This document shows, piece by piece, positions 7,732 through 23,841 of a stretch of DNA of 25,032 nucleotides; position 1 is the stretch's first letter, and each line of letters starts with the position of its first letter. A program made the position numbers and the translations under genes. The DNA is from a virus. The notes below the pieces were generated by a model. That model did no database searches. It was not told where the DNA came from and saw only the letters and a list, made by a program, of their open reading frames with translations. Location: positions 1-25,032 of the IMG/VR virus record IMGVR_UViG_3300029811_000191, one strand, 5' to 3'.

Positions 7732-7766
7732 GGGCAGTGTACTGCCCGTTAATAAACAAATGTCAA
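7732..7766 (-). promoter_or_regulatory. Perfect palindrome next to a leftward -35 box
   Basis: GGGCAGT-GT-ACTGCCC (7732-7747) is a perfect 7-bp dyad. A minus-strand TTGACA (7766-7761) lies just upstream, so the palindrome covers where the -10 of a leftward promoter would sit (TACACT, 19-nt spacing, weak). It could be a repressor operator for 7374-7709. It could also be an enhancer site for the sigma54 promoter, because it lies about 147 bp upstream of that start. Confidence 0.55.
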
Positions 7767-7860
7767 CGTCTTGAAAAACATTAAATCACGATTTGAAAAC
7801 AATGTCAAGCGTTTTGTTTTGCTCGAAAGAAAAGACAATAAAATCAACGTGTTACAAACA

Positions 7861-7877
7861 TGGCACAGATATTGCAT
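7861..7877 (+). promoter_or_regulatory. Candidate sigma54 (-24/-12) promoter, rightward
   Basis: TGGCAC (7861-7866), five bases, then TTGCA (7872-7876). The invariant GG (7862-7863) and GC (7874-7875) are 10 nt apart, exactly as RpoN requires. The start would be near 7887, giving a leader of about 210 nt before terS that contains several hairpins. No enhancer-binding protein is encoded in this window. Confidence 0.6.
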
Positions 7878-7888
7878 ACATGGACAAT

Positions 7889-8031
7889 ACTGGCTATGCC
7901 AGTGGGATAGTGCCTTAATATTATTAAGGACCCCCCACCGAGCCCCAACGGGTAGGGTGTAGTGGTGATGATTACACCCAGTTTACACACGAGTGAAAAT
8001 TAAAAGCTGAATGTCTTGGTTCTAAAGAACC
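7889..8031 (+). promoter_or_regulatory. Palindrome-rich leader with competing hairpins
   Basis: There is no gene here. In order: ACTGGC-TAT-GCCAGT (7889-7903); the perfect 17-bp palindrome CCTTAATATTATTAAGG (7913-7929); a hairpin CACC-GA-GCCC-CAAC-GGGT-AG-GGTG (7936-7959); a hairpin GGGTGTA...TACACCC (7955-7961 with 7973-7979); and GGTTCT-AA-AGAACC (8018-8031). The third and fourth share GGGTG and cannot both form. The GC-rich patch next to terS is also where a packaging site could lie. Confidence 0.5.
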
Positions 8032-8064: not shown

Positions 8065-8094
8065 TTGACAACTTGGAAAATTTATGCCCATAAT
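8065..8094 (+). promoter_or_regulatory. Sigma70-type promoter for terS, probably leaderless
   Basis: TTGACA (8065-8070), an 18-nt spacer and CATAAT (8089-8094). Five bases (AGAAT) separate the -10 box from the terS ATG at 8100. This is the same 5-nt distance as at the ribbon-helix-helix promoter. No Shine-Dalgarno sequence precedes the ATG. Confidence 0.65.
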
Positions 8095-8099
8095 AGAAT

Positions 8100-8561
8100 A
8101 TGTCTAGACCTAAAATTGAAATACCTCCAGAAATACTTCTCGATCTGAAGGAGATGGGCCTCACTCAGAAGCAGGCTTCCAAAGAACTTGGCGTTTCCTC
8201 TCAGACACTTTCCAAGCGAATGGCAGATGTTCAGAGTAAACAGGGATTACTTCTTCAATACCGTGCTTTACAATCCCTCCAGCTCACTGAACTTCAGGCC
8301 AGGATTCTGGAAGCAATTACACCAGAGAAAATAGAAGAGGCGGGTATGAAAGACTTAGTCCTCGCCTTTAAGATCTTGAAAGATAAAGAACAAGTTATTG
8401 AGGGAAAGCCTACTGAGATTAAAGGGCTTGTCTCTTATCTTATAAAAATAGAGGAAGAAGAATTTGCCTTAGCAGAATCTGTTCCTGAAGGTAAGATTGA
8501 AGAGGTAACTAAAGTTACCCGCGAAATAACTGACCCTGACTATCTTCCTAATTTAGATTGA
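8100..8561 (+). CDS. terS: Terminase small subunit (probable)
   Basis: The protein has 153 residues and sits directly before terL, the usual place for the small terminase subunit that recognises packaging DNA. Residues about 8-45 contain a helix-turn-helix-like region (LKEMGLTQKQASKELGVSSQ). A leucine-rich helical region (about 55-105) fits the oligomerisation core. The acidic C-terminal tail could contact the large subunit. Assignment rests on position, size and domain layout more than on a family signature. The start ATG at 8100 has no ribosome site and the -10 box is 5 nt away. The next in-frame ATG (codon 18) falls inside the helix-turn-helix, so I keep 8100. Confidence 0.78.
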   Translation: MSRPKIEIPPEILLDLKEMGLTQKQASKELGVSSQTLSKRMADVQSKQGLLLQYRALQSLQLTELQARILEAITPEKIEEAGMKDLVLAFKILKDKEQVIEGKPTEIKGLVSYLIKIEEEEFALAESVPEGKIEEVTKVTREITDPDYLPNLD

Positions 8562-8566
8562 GCTAA

Positions 8567-8650
8567 GCACGCCTCTTGGGCGTGCAGGGTGACATTGATA
8601 ATCAACTTCCAAGCAAACGCAAGCGTTTGCAGGGTGCAGGGTGCAGGGTG
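8567..8650 (+). repeat. Two hairpins each followed by GCAGGGT repeats
   Basis: A hairpin GCACGCC...GGCGTGC (8567-8585) runs straight into GCAGGGT. A second perfect 8-bp hairpin, GCAAACGC-AA-GCGTTTGC (8613-8630), runs into three tandem GCAGGGT units (8629-8649). There are no U-runs, so neither looks like a standard terminator. A related ACAGGGTGCAGGGG occurs near 6250. Confidence 0.6.
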
Positions 8651-8670
8651 GCTTAACTAGGACGATGCCA

Positions 8671-8833: not shown

Positions 8834-10315
8834 ATGAATAAAAGCGCGATGAAAAAACTGAAGGAATGGAAGGCATCTCCTTTAAAATTTGTGGTAGAGT
8901 GCATAGGTGCCACTCCTTCTAAGCAGCAAGTTAAGGCATTGGTGCTTCTGCCAAAGACTAAGCGATTATCCATTCGTTCAGGACATGGTTGTGGTAAAGA
9001 CGGATTCTGTGCTTGGGCTCTGTTATGGTTCATGACAACTCGCGCATATGCAAAAGTAGTCTGCACTGCTCCCACAGCTCATCAGTTAAGTGATATTCTC
9101 TGGAGTGAAATTTCTAAATGGTTAAGACAATCACTTGTTGCTGATGAATTTGTTCTTCAGAAAGATAAGTTCTTTCATAAATCAAGTCCTAAGGAATATT
9201 GGGCGAGGGCTGTCTCACCCTCAGTAAAGGCTAGCAAGGAAGATCAAGCAGAGACCTTGGCCGGTTTTCATGCTGATCACTTAATGATTATAGTAGATGA
9301 GGCCAGCGGCGTACTTGATCCAGTATATGTTCCCTTGGAAGGCGCTTTAACACAAAAAGATAATATGGTTATCTTAATAGGAAATCCAACTAAGAATACT
9401 GGTTACTTTCACAACACACAGTTTCATCCTACCTTCTCAAGAAGGTGGACAAAGTTACATTGGGACTCTAGAGATAGTGAACTTGTCTCAGATGATATGG
9501 TTAGTTACTTTAAAGATAATTATGGGGAAGATTCCAACATATTTAGAATCAGGGTTATGGGAGAGCCCCCAGTAGATGATGAGTCAACCTTCATTCCTTT
9601 GTCATGGGCATTAAGCTGCGTGGGCAACCCTATAGAAACAGATCCAAGTTGGCCTCTTCATCTCTCAGTAGATGTAGCTCGTTACGGCGATGATGATAGT
9701 ATTATCTTACCAAGAAGGGGTATGAAGATAGATCCCTGGGAAAGGTTTCACGGAGTTCATACATTACAGTTATCTCACCATATACTCAGGACATATAAGG
9801 ATATGGAAGCTGATGGGGTTGCTATAGACGCCATTGGAGTAGGTGGCGGTGTGGTTGACTGGCTTCAGAATGATCCAAGAGGCCTAGGCTATGATAAGGT
9901 ATTTGAATTCACTGCTTCTGAAGGCTCAAGTGATCCTAAGAAATACTATCGATTAAGAGACGAATTATGGGATAAAGTAAGGACAAATTGTATGAAACAG
10001 AAGTATTCCTTTCCTGATCAAAGTATAAGACTCTTTGGAAAAGATATGAACTTAGGCCATATGCTAGCAGATGAACTTGCGAGTGTAAAGTATAACTTAG
10101 ATAATAGTGCCATTAAGATTGAGAGTAAAAAAGATATGAAAGCTCGAGGCGTTGCATCTCCTAATATTGCAGATGCACTTTGTATTTCTGAATACTTCTC
10201 GAAGGACATTGCATTTGGACTTTGGTCACCAAGACAGAGAGCTATAAAGAAGAAAAGAGTTCTTCCTGGGTCTGACTATAGTCGAGTAAATCAGCAAAGT
10301 TGGATGGCCGTATAA
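8834..10315 (+). CDS. terL: Terminase large subunit
   Basis: The 493-residue packaging motor contains both the ATPase and the nuclease. The ATPase has a Walker A-like loop SGHGCGKD (49-56) and Walker B MIIVDE (151-156). A segment at 180-190 (ILIGNPTKNTG) fits the coupling motif. The RNase H-like nuclease has candidate acidic residues D280 (SVDVARYGDD), D332 (AIDAIGVGGG) and D447 (NIADAL). The Walker A loop has D where S or T is usual after GK. The length is normal for a complete large subunit. The ATG directly follows the stop of the 36-codon ORF. The protein moves DNA through the portal and cuts it. Confidence 0.95.
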   Translation: MNKSAMKKLKEWKASPLKFVVECIGATPSKQQVKALVLLPKTKRLSIRSGHGCGKDGFCAWALLWFMTTRAYAKVVCTAPTAHQLSDILWSEISKWLRQSLVADEFVLQKDKFFHKSSPKEYWARAVSPSVKASKEDQAETLAGFHADHLMIIVDEASGVLDPVYVPLEGALTQKDNMVILIGNPTKNTGYFHNTQFHPTFSRRWTKLHWDSRDSELVSDDMVSYFKDNYGEDSNIFRIRVMGEPPVDDESTFIPLSWALSCVGNPIETDPSWPLHLSVDVARYGDDDSIILPRRGMKIDPWERFHGVHTLQLSHHILRTYKDMEADGVAIDAIGVGGGVVDWLQNDPRGLGYDKVFEFTASEGSSDPKKYYRLRDELWDKVRTNCMKQKYSFPDQSIRLFGKDMNLGHMLADELASVKYNLDNSAIKIESKKDMKARGVASPNIADALCISEYFSKDIAFGLWSPRQRAIKKKRVLPGSDYSRVNQQSWMAV

Positions 10316-10366: not shown

Positions 10367-12214
10367 ATGCCGTTAGCTGAGAGAGAAGACAGTCCTATTA
10401 GACTTGGGATTAACGCAAAGGAAGATAAGGACTTAACGCAGCTCTTGGAGTGGCTTAAACAAGCTGAAGAGAGTAAACCTGAAACAACTTATAGAGAAGT
10501 TTCTTCTGAAGATTATAACTTCTACGCAGGAGATCAAGATACCGCTGAGGTTAAGTTGACCTTAGAGGCGAAGAAAAGGCCTGCTACTGTCTATAACGAA
10601 ATCAAGCCAAAAATTGATATGCTTGTAGGCATGGCAGCACAAACTAAACATGAAACAAGTATCCTTCCCGTAGGAACAGAAGATGAGTCCTTTGTTGAAT
10701 TGATGAATGGAACGTTGAAACACTTTCAGAAAAAGACAAAGGCTAAGAGGAAGGAACTGGAAGTCTTTGAGCATACTGTGAAGAGTGGAAGGTCATTACT
10801 TTACTTCTATATTGATAAAGCAAATCCTTTTAAACCTGTTATCAAGAGTAAAAGAGTTGAGGGTAGAAATTTTTGGCTGGATCCAGATGCTCAAGAGTAT
10901 GATCTTTCCGATTCGAGATTCCTGTTTATAGATAAGTGGCTTGACGAGAGAGAGATAAAACAGTTCTGGCCTAAGTTCGATACTTCTCAGGCAGAGCAAT
11001 CTGGAAGGCAGAGTGATGACCCAAGCTTTTTTGATGAGGCTAGGGAGAAGTATAGAATTGTAGAGGGGTGGTATTATAAACTTACTGAAGTTATATACTT
11101 TATTAATCCCATGACCGGAGAAGTAGAATGGTTGACACCCTCGAATTTTAGTAAGTTTGTAAAGACCTTAAGAGAAGGAATTGATATTGGGAAGGAAGAG
11201 CCCTTCACTTATAATGAAGCTATTACACAACAGAAGTCTTTTAAGAAACAGTATCATTATATGATATTCTCAGGAACTGTTAGGCTTGAGGGAGATCTAA
11301 GTCCACTTAACTGGGAGGGTATTCCCGCAGTCTTCTGTGGAGCTTATAAAGCCTATGATACAAATTCTTGGTTTGGTGCTGTGACAGGGATGAAAGACCC
11401 CCAGAGAACACTTAATACTAATAGAAGGCAATTGATTTACCTGCTTCAGACACTTCCTAAGGGAACTTTAATGCATGAAGTTGGAGCTATTCTTAATATT
11501 GAAGAGTATGAAGAGAGGGCATCTGACCCTAATTTCCACTTAGAGATTGCGCAGGGAAAATTTGATAAGGTCAAATTTATGCAGCAACCTACTATCTCTA
11601 ACATTTATAGCTTGTTTGATTCAACTTGTATACAAAGTATAAAGGACACTTCGGGAGCGCAGGATTCACTCATGGGAATACAGACTTCTTCAAGGGAACC
11701 TGGGATTACTGTTAAGGCAAGGCAAGAGACGGGAATTGCAGTACTGTATATCCTTTTTGATAACTTTAGAGAGACAAGACTTAACGCAGGAAGACTATTG
11801 TTATCTCTAATCCAGCAATATGTAACAGAAGAGACTATTGTTAGGCTTGAGGGAGAAAAGGGAATTCAACTGCTTGAGATTAATAATCAGATGAATCCAC
11901 AATTGGAAGGGTTTAATGATATCTCCGCAGGAGAATTTGATTATACTGTCTCAGAGACGGCCGAGACAATGACCATTCGTGCAGCTACAGCTCAGATGTT
12001 AATTGACTTTAATCATAATCAGCCAGGAACAATTCCTCCGGATGTCTTACTCGACTATGTTGACTTGCCCTTCACGGCTAAACAGAGAGTTAAAATGCAG
12101 TGGGAGCAACAGCAGGAAGCACAGAAGGAAGCAGCTGATAGGGAATATGAGCTTAAATTGAAAGAACTAGATATTAAATCTCAACAAGCAAACAAGACTA
12201 AAAAGGAGAGTTAG
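10367..12214 (+). CDS. Portal protein, P22-like
   Basis: The 615-residue protein would form the dodecameric ring at one capsid vertex through which terminase drives DNA. Features of the P22-type portal family include an N-terminal region with KKRPATVYNEIKPKIDMLVG (69-88), an HTVKSGRSLLYFYID segment (136-150) and WLDPDAQEYDLSDSRFLFI (170-188). The last ~40 residues (QQQEAQKEAADREYELKLKE) are a charged helix that could be a barrel or coiled coil. ATG at 10367 has GAAGGAG upstream. The final codon overlaps the start of the homing endonuclease by 1 nt. Confidence 0.9.
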   Translation: MPLAEREDSPIRLGINAKEDKDLTQLLEWLKQAEESKPETTYREVSSEDYNFYAGDQDTAEVKLTLEAKKRPATVYNEIKPKIDMLVGMAAQTKHETSILPVGTEDESFVELMNGTLKHFQKKTKAKRKELEVFEHTVKSGRSLLYFYIDKANPFKPVIKSKRVEGRNFWLDPDAQEYDLSDSRFLFIDKWLDEREIKQFWPKFDTSQAEQSGRQSDDPSFFDEAREKYRIVEGWYYKLTEVIYFINPMTGEVEWLTPSNFSKFVKTLREGIDIGKEEPFTYNEAITQQKSFKKQYHYMIFSGTVRLEGDLSPLNWEGIPAVFCGAYKAYDTNSWFGAVTGMKDPQRTLNTNRRQLIYLLQTLPKGTLMHEVGAILNIEEYEERASDPNFHLEIAQGKFDKVKFMQQPTISNIYSLFDSTCIQSIKDTSGAQDSLMGIQTSSREPGITVKARQETGIAVLYILFDNFRETRLNAGRLLLSLIQQYVTEETIVRLEGEKGIQLLEINNQMNPQLEGFNDISAGEFDYTVSETAETMTIRAATAQMLIDFNHNQPGTIPPDVLLDYVDLPFTAKQRVKMQWEQQQEAQKEAADREYELKLKELDIKSQQANKTKKES

Positions 12215-21159: not shown

Positions 21160-22488
21160 ATGGGCTCGTTCAGAATAGGAATGGATGAAAATAAGATTGC
21201 ACAATTAGTAGAGAATTATTTCTCTGCTTCGACCACTATGGCAAGTGGACGTTCTTCTGCATTGACTTCTCTCCTGAGTCAATTATCGAGCCTTTTCAGT
21301 GGTGCTGCAATACCAACTATTGATGCTGCATATAATCATCAATCTATATCTCTCCATTCAGATTCAGCATCTAAACCCACTGCTCCTACTCTGTCTATAG
21401 ATGAAGATGCTCCAGTGATGGGAGAATTGGCCAGCTTTTCAATGCCGACAATCACTATTCCTTCTTATGCAATTACGGAGCCTGTAGCAGAGCTTGACTA
21501 TAATGAAGCAATATATCAGTCAGATATACAAGATGCCTTAAAGATTGCCCTTCTGGAGTTCATTAAAAGTGGAGGAGCGGGTCTCGGTGCAGATGTAGAA
21601 GATGCCTTGTGGGCGAGAGGTAGGACAGAGCGGGACTTAGTAAATGAAAGGGCTTATAATGAAGTTGAAGAATTTATTGCTTCGAAAGGTTACTGTGTTC
21701 CAGCAGGTGCTTTGAATGGATTAAGGTCAAGAATCTTGGCTGAGCAGACCAGGGCAGATGCAGAGGTGAACTTTAAGATAATGATCGAACAGGCCAGACT
21801 TGCACGAGGCCAATCTGAGCATACAATGAGTATGTCCATTGCACTTGAAGGACAAGAGAAGGAGCACTTCAATAATGTTGCAAATAGGACTTTGGAATGT
21901 GCAAAGGCAGCAGCACAGGTTATTCTTAGTTTATATGCTGCAAAGGTAATGGGATATCGCAAGCAAATGGAAGGGGCTAAGATAGCGGTTGAAACAAAAA
22001 AGACTGAGATTGATGCTATTGTTGCAGGGAATAAGGGTGTCATTGATACATACTCAGCAAGTGTAGAGGGCTACAAAGCTAAGCTTTTGGCAGAGATAGG
22101 AATAGTAGAAGCCTTTGCCAAATTGTACGGCTTTGAAATTGCAGGGTATAGGACTGATACAGAAATAGTTGCGATTGATCTTGATGCTCAGATTAAAGCT
22201 TACCAGAGTAAAATAGACCAAGCAAATAATCAAACAGCATTATCTTTGCAGGAAGCTGAAATAGCAATAAGGTCTTATTTAAAAGCTGTCCAATTGACAG
22301 AAGGCACAATAAGTGGCGGAGGTGGTCTGTCTGCGCAGGCAATTGCAAGTGCTTTAAGTGCAATAAATGTTAGTGCAAGTATAGGTGACAGTGTTTTTAG
22401 TAATGCAAAGTCAAATGTTAGTGATACAAAAAGTCGTCGTAGCAGCGTTAATTGCTCGGAAATTCATAGATATGATCATACGGAGTAA
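21160..22488 (+). CDS. Coiled-coil virion protein, paralogue 1, 442 aa
   Basis: The N-terminal ~100 residues are S/T/A/P-rich and low-complexity. The rest is a long helical region with ALWARGRTERDLVNERAYNE, RADAEVNFKIMIEQARLARG and GQEKEHFNNVANRTLECAKA. It aligns along its whole length with the next protein. Both end in a shared C-terminal tag, here SEIHRYDHTE. Related helical proteins are encoded in the tail regions of many phages. A role as tail or ejection protein is inferred. Confidence 0.7.
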   Translation: MGSFRIGMDENKIAQLVENYFSASTTMASGRSSALTSLLSQLSSLFSGAAIPTIDAAYNHQSISLHSDSASKPTAPTLSIDEDAPVMGELASFSMPTITIPSYAITEPVAELDYNEAIYQSDIQDALKIALLEFIKSGGAGLGADVEDALWARGRTERDLVNERAYNEVEEFIASKGYCVPAGALNGLRSRILAEQTRADAEVNFKIMIEQARLARGQSEHTMSMSIALEGQEKEHFNNVANRTLECAKAAAQVILSLYAAKVMGYRKQMEGAKIAVETKKTEIDAIVAGNKGVIDTYSASVEGYKAKLLAEIGIVEAFAKLYGFEIAGYRTDTEIVAIDLDAQIKAYQSKIDQANNQTALSLQEAEIAIRSYLKAVQLTEGTISGGGGLSAQAIASALSAINVSASIGDSVFSNAKSNVSDTKSRRSSVNCSEIHRYDHTE

Positions 22489-22491
22489 GTT

Positions 22492-23841
22492 ATGGGTGAC
22501 TGTGGTATTAATATAAGAAGTGGAACAGTAACATTAGGAGATTCTAGTTCTCCTAATAATGTGTCTAAGAGATTTGAGCTTGGAACAAGCGTAGCTTCTG
22601 CTCAATCATCTGCAGCATTAACTTACCTTTCTGCATTGAGTTCAGTGTTTGCAGAGGCAACAATGCCTGATGCAGATATTTCCTACAGTTTTGGAGATAT
22701 TTTAAAGAAGTCGATTTCTGCTCCTACACCCCCTAGTCCATCTATAGATACGAGTGGGGAACCAACAGTTGGAGAGCTAATTAGCATTGCAGTTCCAACA
22801 GTTACCATTCCTTCTTATACAGTAATAGAACCTGGTATAGTAGACCTTGGATATGATGAGGCTGCATATTATTCAGATATTCAGGATGCTCTAATGGTTG
22901 CCCTGGTTAATTTTATTGAAAACGGTGGGACTGGAATTGATGCTGATACAGAAGCTGCACTATGGGAAAGGGGTAGGGAAAGACAAGCAATTTTAAACGG
23001 GAGTTTATATAGCGAGGCTAGTGCTCATATTGCATCTAAGGGATATAACCTTCCTGCTTGTATATTGACAGGGCTGCTATCTGAATCTCTCTTAGAACAA
23101 AACAGGGCAGATGTACAACTTGAAAACGAAATACTGATTGAACAAGCCAGGCTTACAAGAGCACAGTCTGATTATTCTATTAAGGCAGCTATTACATTTG
23201 AAGGGCAGGAGAAGACGCACTTTAATAACATTGCTAATAGGACGCTAGACTGTGCAAAGGCGGCAGTGCAAGTTATAATTGATTTGTATCTTACAAAACT
23301 TGATGCTTATATTGTTAAGTTAGAGGCTGCCAGAGTATCAGCTGAGATTGCAAAGATACAAGCTGGTGCTGTTGCCGCGACAAATGAGAATACTGTTAAT
23401 ATCTATAAGGCAGATATAGAGGGATATAAAGTTAGACTGCAAGCAGAGATAGGAATAGCTGAAACAATAGCTAAGATATATGGATTCAAAGTTATGGCTT
23501 ACGAGATTGAGGCAAAGACAGCAATGCTTGACCTTGACGTACAAATTAAGAAATACCAAGGCGGGATAGATCAAGCTAAGAATGAAACAGTATTATCTTT
23601 GAAAGAAGCTGAAATGGTAATACAAGAGTATCTGGGAAGTCTTCAATTGACAGCGGCGTCAGGACTGGCTAAAGGACGTGTCTACACACAATGGCTTGCG
23701 GCTGCTCTGGGTATGGCCAATGCAAGTGCAAGTCTTGGAGAGAGCGTTACTCGTGCAGCAACTTGTACTGATAGCTCTACGGGGACAAAAATAAGGTCTG
23801 ATTCTTACTCAGATATACACAGATATGATCATGAGGGGTAG
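22492..23841 (+). CDS. Coiled-coil virion protein, paralogue 2, 449 aa
   Basis: A tandem duplicate of the previous gene, 3 nt downstream, with GGAG inside the end of that gene as ribosome site. Matching blocks include VPTVTIPSYTVIEPGI, YYSDIQDALMVALVNFIE, ALWERGRERQAI, RADVQLENEILIEQARLTRA and GQEKTHFNNIANRTLDCAKA. It ends SDIHRYDHEG. The N-termini differ more than the helical region, as expected if the two proteins contact different partners. Confidence 0.7.
   Translation: MGDCGINIRSGTVTLGDSSSPNNVSKRFELGTSVASAQSSAALTYLSALSSVFAEATMPDADISYSFGDILKKSISAPTPPSPSIDTSGEPTVGELISIAVPTVTIPSYTVIEPGIVDLGYDEAAYYSDIQDALMVALVNFIENGGTGIDADTEAALWERGRERQAILNGSLYSEASAHIASKGYNLPACILTGLLSESLLEQNRADVQLENEILIEQARLTRAQSDYSIKAAITFEGQEKTHFNNIANRTLDCAKAAVQVIIDLYLTKLDAYIVKLEAARVSAEIAKIQAGAVAATNENTVNIYKADIEGYKVRLQAEIGIAETIAKIYGFKVMAYEIEAKTAMLDLDVQIKKYQGGIDQAKNETVLSLKEAEMVIQEYLGSLQLTAASGLAKGRVYTQWLAAALGMANASASLGESVTRAATCTDSSTGTKIRSDSYSDIHRYDHEG

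Follow-up and report, generated by a model that had tools for sequence, protein, structure and literature searches.

A putative sigma54-type promoter in the early/late control region of a phage and its relatives

Bacterial sigma54 (RpoN) promoters give no transcript before an activator that runs on ATP has sensed a condition of the host, and their published consensus is YTGGCACGRNNNTTGCW. A match to this type of promoter lies between two divergent operons in the DNA of an uncultivated phage analysed here, 25,032 nucleotides of IMG/VR record IMGVR_UViG_3300029811_000191 (positions 1 to 25,032; hereafter the window), and raises the question of whether a phage has placed its genes under this host sigma factor. 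A sequence-only reading had proposed RpoN control of the structural genes, with a perfect dyad further upstream as the enhancer site. Our best reading, to which we assign a probability of about 0.6, is that the element is a functional sigma54 promoter of the phage's early/late control region that would act as a conditional second input beside sigma70.

The spacer is divergent and the element faces terS, both as the sequence-only reading had described (Table 1). Pfam and PHROGs place terS, terL, portal, major head protein and more structural genes to the right of the spacer, and a ligase together with genes without assigned function to the left. The terS match is weak, and the start codon of the gene is backed by alignment with relatives. 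An Rfam search gave no match. Within TGGCACAGATATTGCA, the GG (7862-7863) and GC (7874-7875) pairs are separated by 10 nt, again as claimed; agreement with YTGGCAC-N5-TTGCW is 11/11 with both pairs in place, and the base just before is A, not Y. Transcription is predicted to start at about 7887 and to run towards terS. Further along the window we observed, in the gap from terS to terL (8612-8652), short tandem direct repeats (gcagggt), an HNH endonuclease ORF (phrog_99) that separates the portal gene from the next structural one (12214-12684), and two neighbouring genes of about 445 aa each (21160-22488 and 22492-23841), similar in sequence and unassigned to a family.

Table 1. Coordinates of the spacer elements and flanking genes in the window
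Feature	Position	Strand	Basis
Leading gene of the left operon (start codon ATG, 7709), with homologues in the corresponding position of L012, L010 and L005	7374-7709	-	ORF list
Dyad GGGCAGT-GT-ACTGCCC, two 7-nt arms, non-symmetric GT centre	7732-7747		Sequence
Leftward sigma70-type promoter TTGACA-N17-TTTAAT (11/12), for the left operon	7780-7808	-	Sequence
sigma54-type -24/-12 element TGGCACAGATATTGCA (TGGCAC-N5-TTGCA)	7861-7876	+	Sequence, pattern search, shuffles, spacing control across relatives
C-rich element CCCCCCACCGAGCCCC, between the rightward and leftward sigma70-type promoters	7931-7946	+	Comparison with relatives
sigma70-type promoter TTGACA-N18-CATAAT (11/12), between TGGCACAGATATTGCA and terS	8065-8094	+	Promoter scan
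terS, small terminase subunit, N-terminal helix-turn-helix, first late gene	8100-8561	+	Pfam, PHROGs
terL, large terminase subunit	8834-10315	+	PHROG phrog_2, E 1.2e-39

Could such a match be accidental? When the 390-bp spacer was dinucleotide-shuffled 20,000 times, a perfect TGGCAC-N5-TTGCW arose on the + strand in 5 cases (p ~2.5e-4, for this spacer and strand), and TGGCACAGATATTGCA is the only perfect sigma54 match in the window. Shuffling the whole window 1,000 times gave a perfect match, on one strand or the other, in 17 cases, and matches with up to two mismatches are about as common in the window as chance predicts (5 observed against 4.7). The element is better than chance, though by itself not overwhelming. 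One alternative is that the match in the window is a coincidence, with the late operon served by the well-placed sigma70-type promoter before terS alone and the group-wide sites described below being real; the whole-window frequency favours it and the spacer frequency speaks against it.

The closest relatives also favour coincidence. In the TerL tree the window groups with L224, L002, L223, L234, L230 and L137 (support 1.00), and the spacer is visible in two members of this clade, L002 (TerL 75% identical) and L137, both of which are without the motif and its GG/GC pair. The sigma54 motif is likewise missing from the spacers of L004, L005, L009, L010 and L012, which come next, and all seven loci share the order left gene, leftward sigma70-type promoter, C-rich element, sigma70-type promoter, terS. 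It is absent, too, from the neighbouring L236 and L258. Judged from these sequences, the window's site is a singleton in its TerL clade, and, consistent with coincidence, the window holds no recognisable activator site. Taken by themselves, these nearest TerL relatives pointed to a verdict of chance, which a wider set changed.

That set, gathered by scanning with TerL, portal and TerS, comprised 61 non-redundant related terS/terL loci. In the 1.3 kb upstream of terS (69 kb), TGGCAY-N6-TGCA occurs at 29 sites in 17 loci, which, the 61 loci being related by descent, are not independent events; each of the other spacings, N0-N5 and N7-N14, gives 0-2 sites in the same region. The remaining 433 kb of the 61 loci contain 4 TGGCAY-N6-TGCA sites and 0-5 at every spacing, a background rate that predicts fewer than one site in 69 kb against the 29 seen and so argues against coincidence. 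Control patterns (reversed, half-swapped or with the spacing changed by one) gave 0-1 sites at a threshold of at least 10/11, compared with 23 for the true pattern, and sigma54 sites at this threshold are 11 times as dense there as in the rest of the loci. In larger viral records the motif is almost restricted to the region upstream of terS. Sigma54 demands just such a fixed spacing, and another explanation for the pattern is hard to find. From the exact-spacing enrichment upstream of terS we infer that sigma54-type -24/-12 elements have been selected in the master control region of this group.

Conservation of the motif with drifting flanks had been proposed as a check on the site. Across the group it holds: N5 and the flanks vary, and the bases in the GG, A and GC columns do not, GG and GC being preset in the scan. 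It does not hold among the nearest relatives L002 and L137, in which the motif is absent; the loss of GG/GC in close relatives, named beforehand as counter-evidence, is thus seen in part. A separate DNA pattern scan with CCCCCACCGAGCCCC returned mostly unrelated phages, the relevant matches being L040 (on the same contig as L002) and L071 only, and a scan for relatives of L280 returned its own contig only. Three matches were judged accidental: those in L123 and L118 lie inside plus-strand genes, and that in L107 lies within a left-leader hairpin and is absent from its close relative L163.

The sites face both ways. Leftward sigma54-type sites occur in 16 loci and rightward ones in 8 including the window, with L099 as a ninth (CGGCAC), and on these counts the group's commoner use of sigma54 would be mostly for the left (early) operon. 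In L280, L109, L099, L286, L283, L288, L291 and L295, rightward copies stand ahead of the C-rich element and terS. L280 reproduces the window's whole order, with rightward TGGCACAGTTCTTGCA, then CCCCCACCGACCCCC, TTGACA-N17-TAGAAT and terS, and this shared layout is a further point against coincidence, which we regard as rather unlikely. Members of a group that we call clade B (L165, L288, L291, L099/L109, L140, L211, L212, L285, L209 and L201) fall together in the TerL tree, and L280, L286 and L295 fall together in the TerS tree; by these placements, with the window in a TerL clade of its own, sigma54 sites arose or moved more than once.

Clade B offers the most elaborate arrangement. Its leftward sigma54 site occupies the position of the sigma70-type promoter of other members, and a leftward sigma70-type promoter (at least 11/12, within 700 bp upstream of terS) is present in 1 of the 16 loci with a leftward sigma54 site compared with 14 of the 42 without. 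Perfect TCGACA-N4-TGTCGA dyads stand in tandem 70-190 bp upstream of this site, and 16 of the 19 such dyads in 2.29 Mb of sequence (duplicate records included) are at clade B sites. They were seen in L209, L210, L201, L165, L099, L109, L140, L288 and L291, with three each in L288 and L291, and are the group's strongest candidates for activator sites. Clade B also has a gene for a small Cys-rich protein ahead of terS as its first late gene (for example, L099 1858-2085, L201 1366-1584 and L209 2831-3073).

Some loci carry arrays of sites, with three leftward copies 25-35 bp apart in L282 and four leftward copies plus one rightward in L295, too close together for simultaneous use. Clustering and dual orientation of this kind are what would be expected if TGGCAY-N6-TGCA marked operators of a phage-encoded DNA-binding protein, with TKGCA directly repeated at a distance of roughly one helical turn and only resembling the consensus for sigma54, since overlapping sigma54 promoters could not all be used at once. 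Weighing against operators, the conserved positions fit the sigma54 consensus down to the T before TGG, the purine after CAC or CAT and the final W, the leftward sites sit where other members have sigma70-type promoters, and the clade B dyads lie at an enhancer-like distance. We consider the operator explanation improbable and retain sigma54 promoters as the preferred reading of these sites.

A dyad of the clade B type was not found in the window; the best approximation, 10/14 at 7792, reaches a score that is attained at many other places. The perfect dyad put forward by the sequence-only reading, some 147 bp from the predicted start, does exist, but its role as an enhancer site is not supported: an inverted repeat as good arises in 160 of 2,000 shuffles of the region. 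On the left transcript, RNA folding gives GGGCAG-UACA-CUGCCC, a 6-bp stem with a UACA loop, shortly before the ribosome site of the left gene and near its start codon, and the left leader of L012 likewise folds into a hairpin of six base pairs and a loop of four bases. To read the dyad as a hairpin in the leader of the left transcript is simpler and, from these predicted folds, more likely than to read it as an activator site.

The left leaders share another element. Within 1.3 kb upstream of terS, boxA-like sequences number 14 on the minus strand and none on the plus strand, compared with 7 in 433 kb elsewhere. They take the form G[CT]TC[TA]TTGA[CA]A, as in L009, L163, L286 and L012, often beside a hairpin, and the window has a weak boxA-like sequence at 7760-7772 on the minus strand. 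The boxA-like leader is a candidate for a nut-like element through which the left operon would be antiterminated. The leftward sigma70-type promoter of the window has counterparts in L002, L004, L005, L009, L010, L012, L071, L114 and L135.

What, then, drives the late genes? RpoN control of the structural genes, taken as exclusive, is not supported, given the near-consensus sigma70-type promoter directly before terS, which has counterparts in L004, L005, L009, L010, L012, L209, L211, L280 and L105. The strongest form of that proposal, in which RpoN controls every late gene and has the window's dyad as its enhancer, can point to a site that faces terS and a dyad at a plausible distance from the predicted start. 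That sigma70-type promoter, the frequency of equally good dyads in shuffles and the hairpin shared with L012 make it very improbable. Because a widespread sigma70-type promoter stands between TGGCACAGATATTGCA and terS, RpoN would be at most a second input to the late genes. The -10 of the terS promoter ends about 5-10 nt short of the start codon (5 nt in the window, 8089-8100, with L004 and L005 alike), and the terS mRNA may have a very short leader or be leaderless.

Between the divergent promoters, C-rich elements are found upstream of terS on the + strand in 23 of the 61 loci and on the - strand in one. In several relatives the element is followed by a TTTTACACACGAGTAAA-like stretch (window region 7931-7998). 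The conserved C-rich element is a candidate cos/packaging (pac) site.

The sigma54 activator domain PF00158 was not found in the window, nor among the viral records searched, which may be incomplete; its only matches were in a 2-Mb MAG, G023. As no activator domain was found in these phage records, a host activator must be assumed. The RpoN DNA-binding domain is present in 3 of 6 MAGs or genomes with a terL relative, none of which is known as the window's host, and no integrated relative more than 50% identical was found in a named isolate genome. Because their dyads differ in sequence, the lineages probably differ in their activators.

Together these observations suggest a model in which host RNA polymerase bearing sigma54 would bind the element as a silent closed complex, to be opened by a host enhancer-binding protein. 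From about 7887, transcription would then run to the right, across the C-rich element and on into terS with the late operon, a conditional input added on top of the constitutive-type sigma70 promoter. Against this model stand the singleton status of the motif in its clade, the sigma70-type promoters in both directions, the absence of a clade B-type dyad and the lack of a PF00158 match in the phage records searched. Across the group, sigma54 promoters would have been gained in several lineages, mostly driving the left (early) operon. The broader scenario, which we hold to be somewhat better than an even bet, is that these widespread, uncultivated tailed phages have drawn host sigma54 into their master control region: the left promoter was swapped from sigma70 to sigma54 in several lineages, one of them with tandem dyads, and the late operon was targeted in others including the window, tying timing to host enhancer-binding proteins, with the differing dyads suggesting differing signals. 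This organization suggests phages that may be switchable by a host stress or nutrient signal. If sigma54 is used, the phage could read host physiology without encoding a sensor, and the exchange of sigma70 for sigma54 at one promoter position offers a case in which a change of a phage's host-signal input can be tested.

Our searches of open-licence papers turned up no phage group whose early/late control region is described as carrying sigma54 promoters. For a Pectobacterium phage, a sigma54-like protein has been guessed at (PMC7693777). In Staphylococcus aureus, sigmaH controls prophage integration and excision (PMC2869324), and there, as proposed here, an alternative host sigma factor gates phage genes; the sigma factor here would belong to another family, one that needs an ATP-driven activator, and would act on the terminase and left operons rather than on integration and excision. 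Gifsy-1 prophage genes affect the RpoN/RtcR regulon and are reported to help determine how a host RpoN operon is expressed (PMC9879122), which links RpoN-dependent transcription to prophage genes, whereas here the sites lie in the phage's own operons.

The window's element resembles bacterial sigma54 promoters in its GG at -24, its GC at -12, the 10 nt between them, a T-rich -12 side and its non-coding spacer, and the clade B relatives add upstream dyads at enhancer distance. Those promoters precede host stress, nitrogen, motility and transport genes, whereas the predicted RpoN site here lies in a phage control region. That region in turn is laid out like the divergent early and late regions of lambda-like phages (the pL side with its boxA leader), with a leftward promoter, a boxA-like leader and a late promoter beside terS. 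Unlike them, it has at least one sigma54-type promoter added, and in clade B the leftward sigma70 promoter is replaced.
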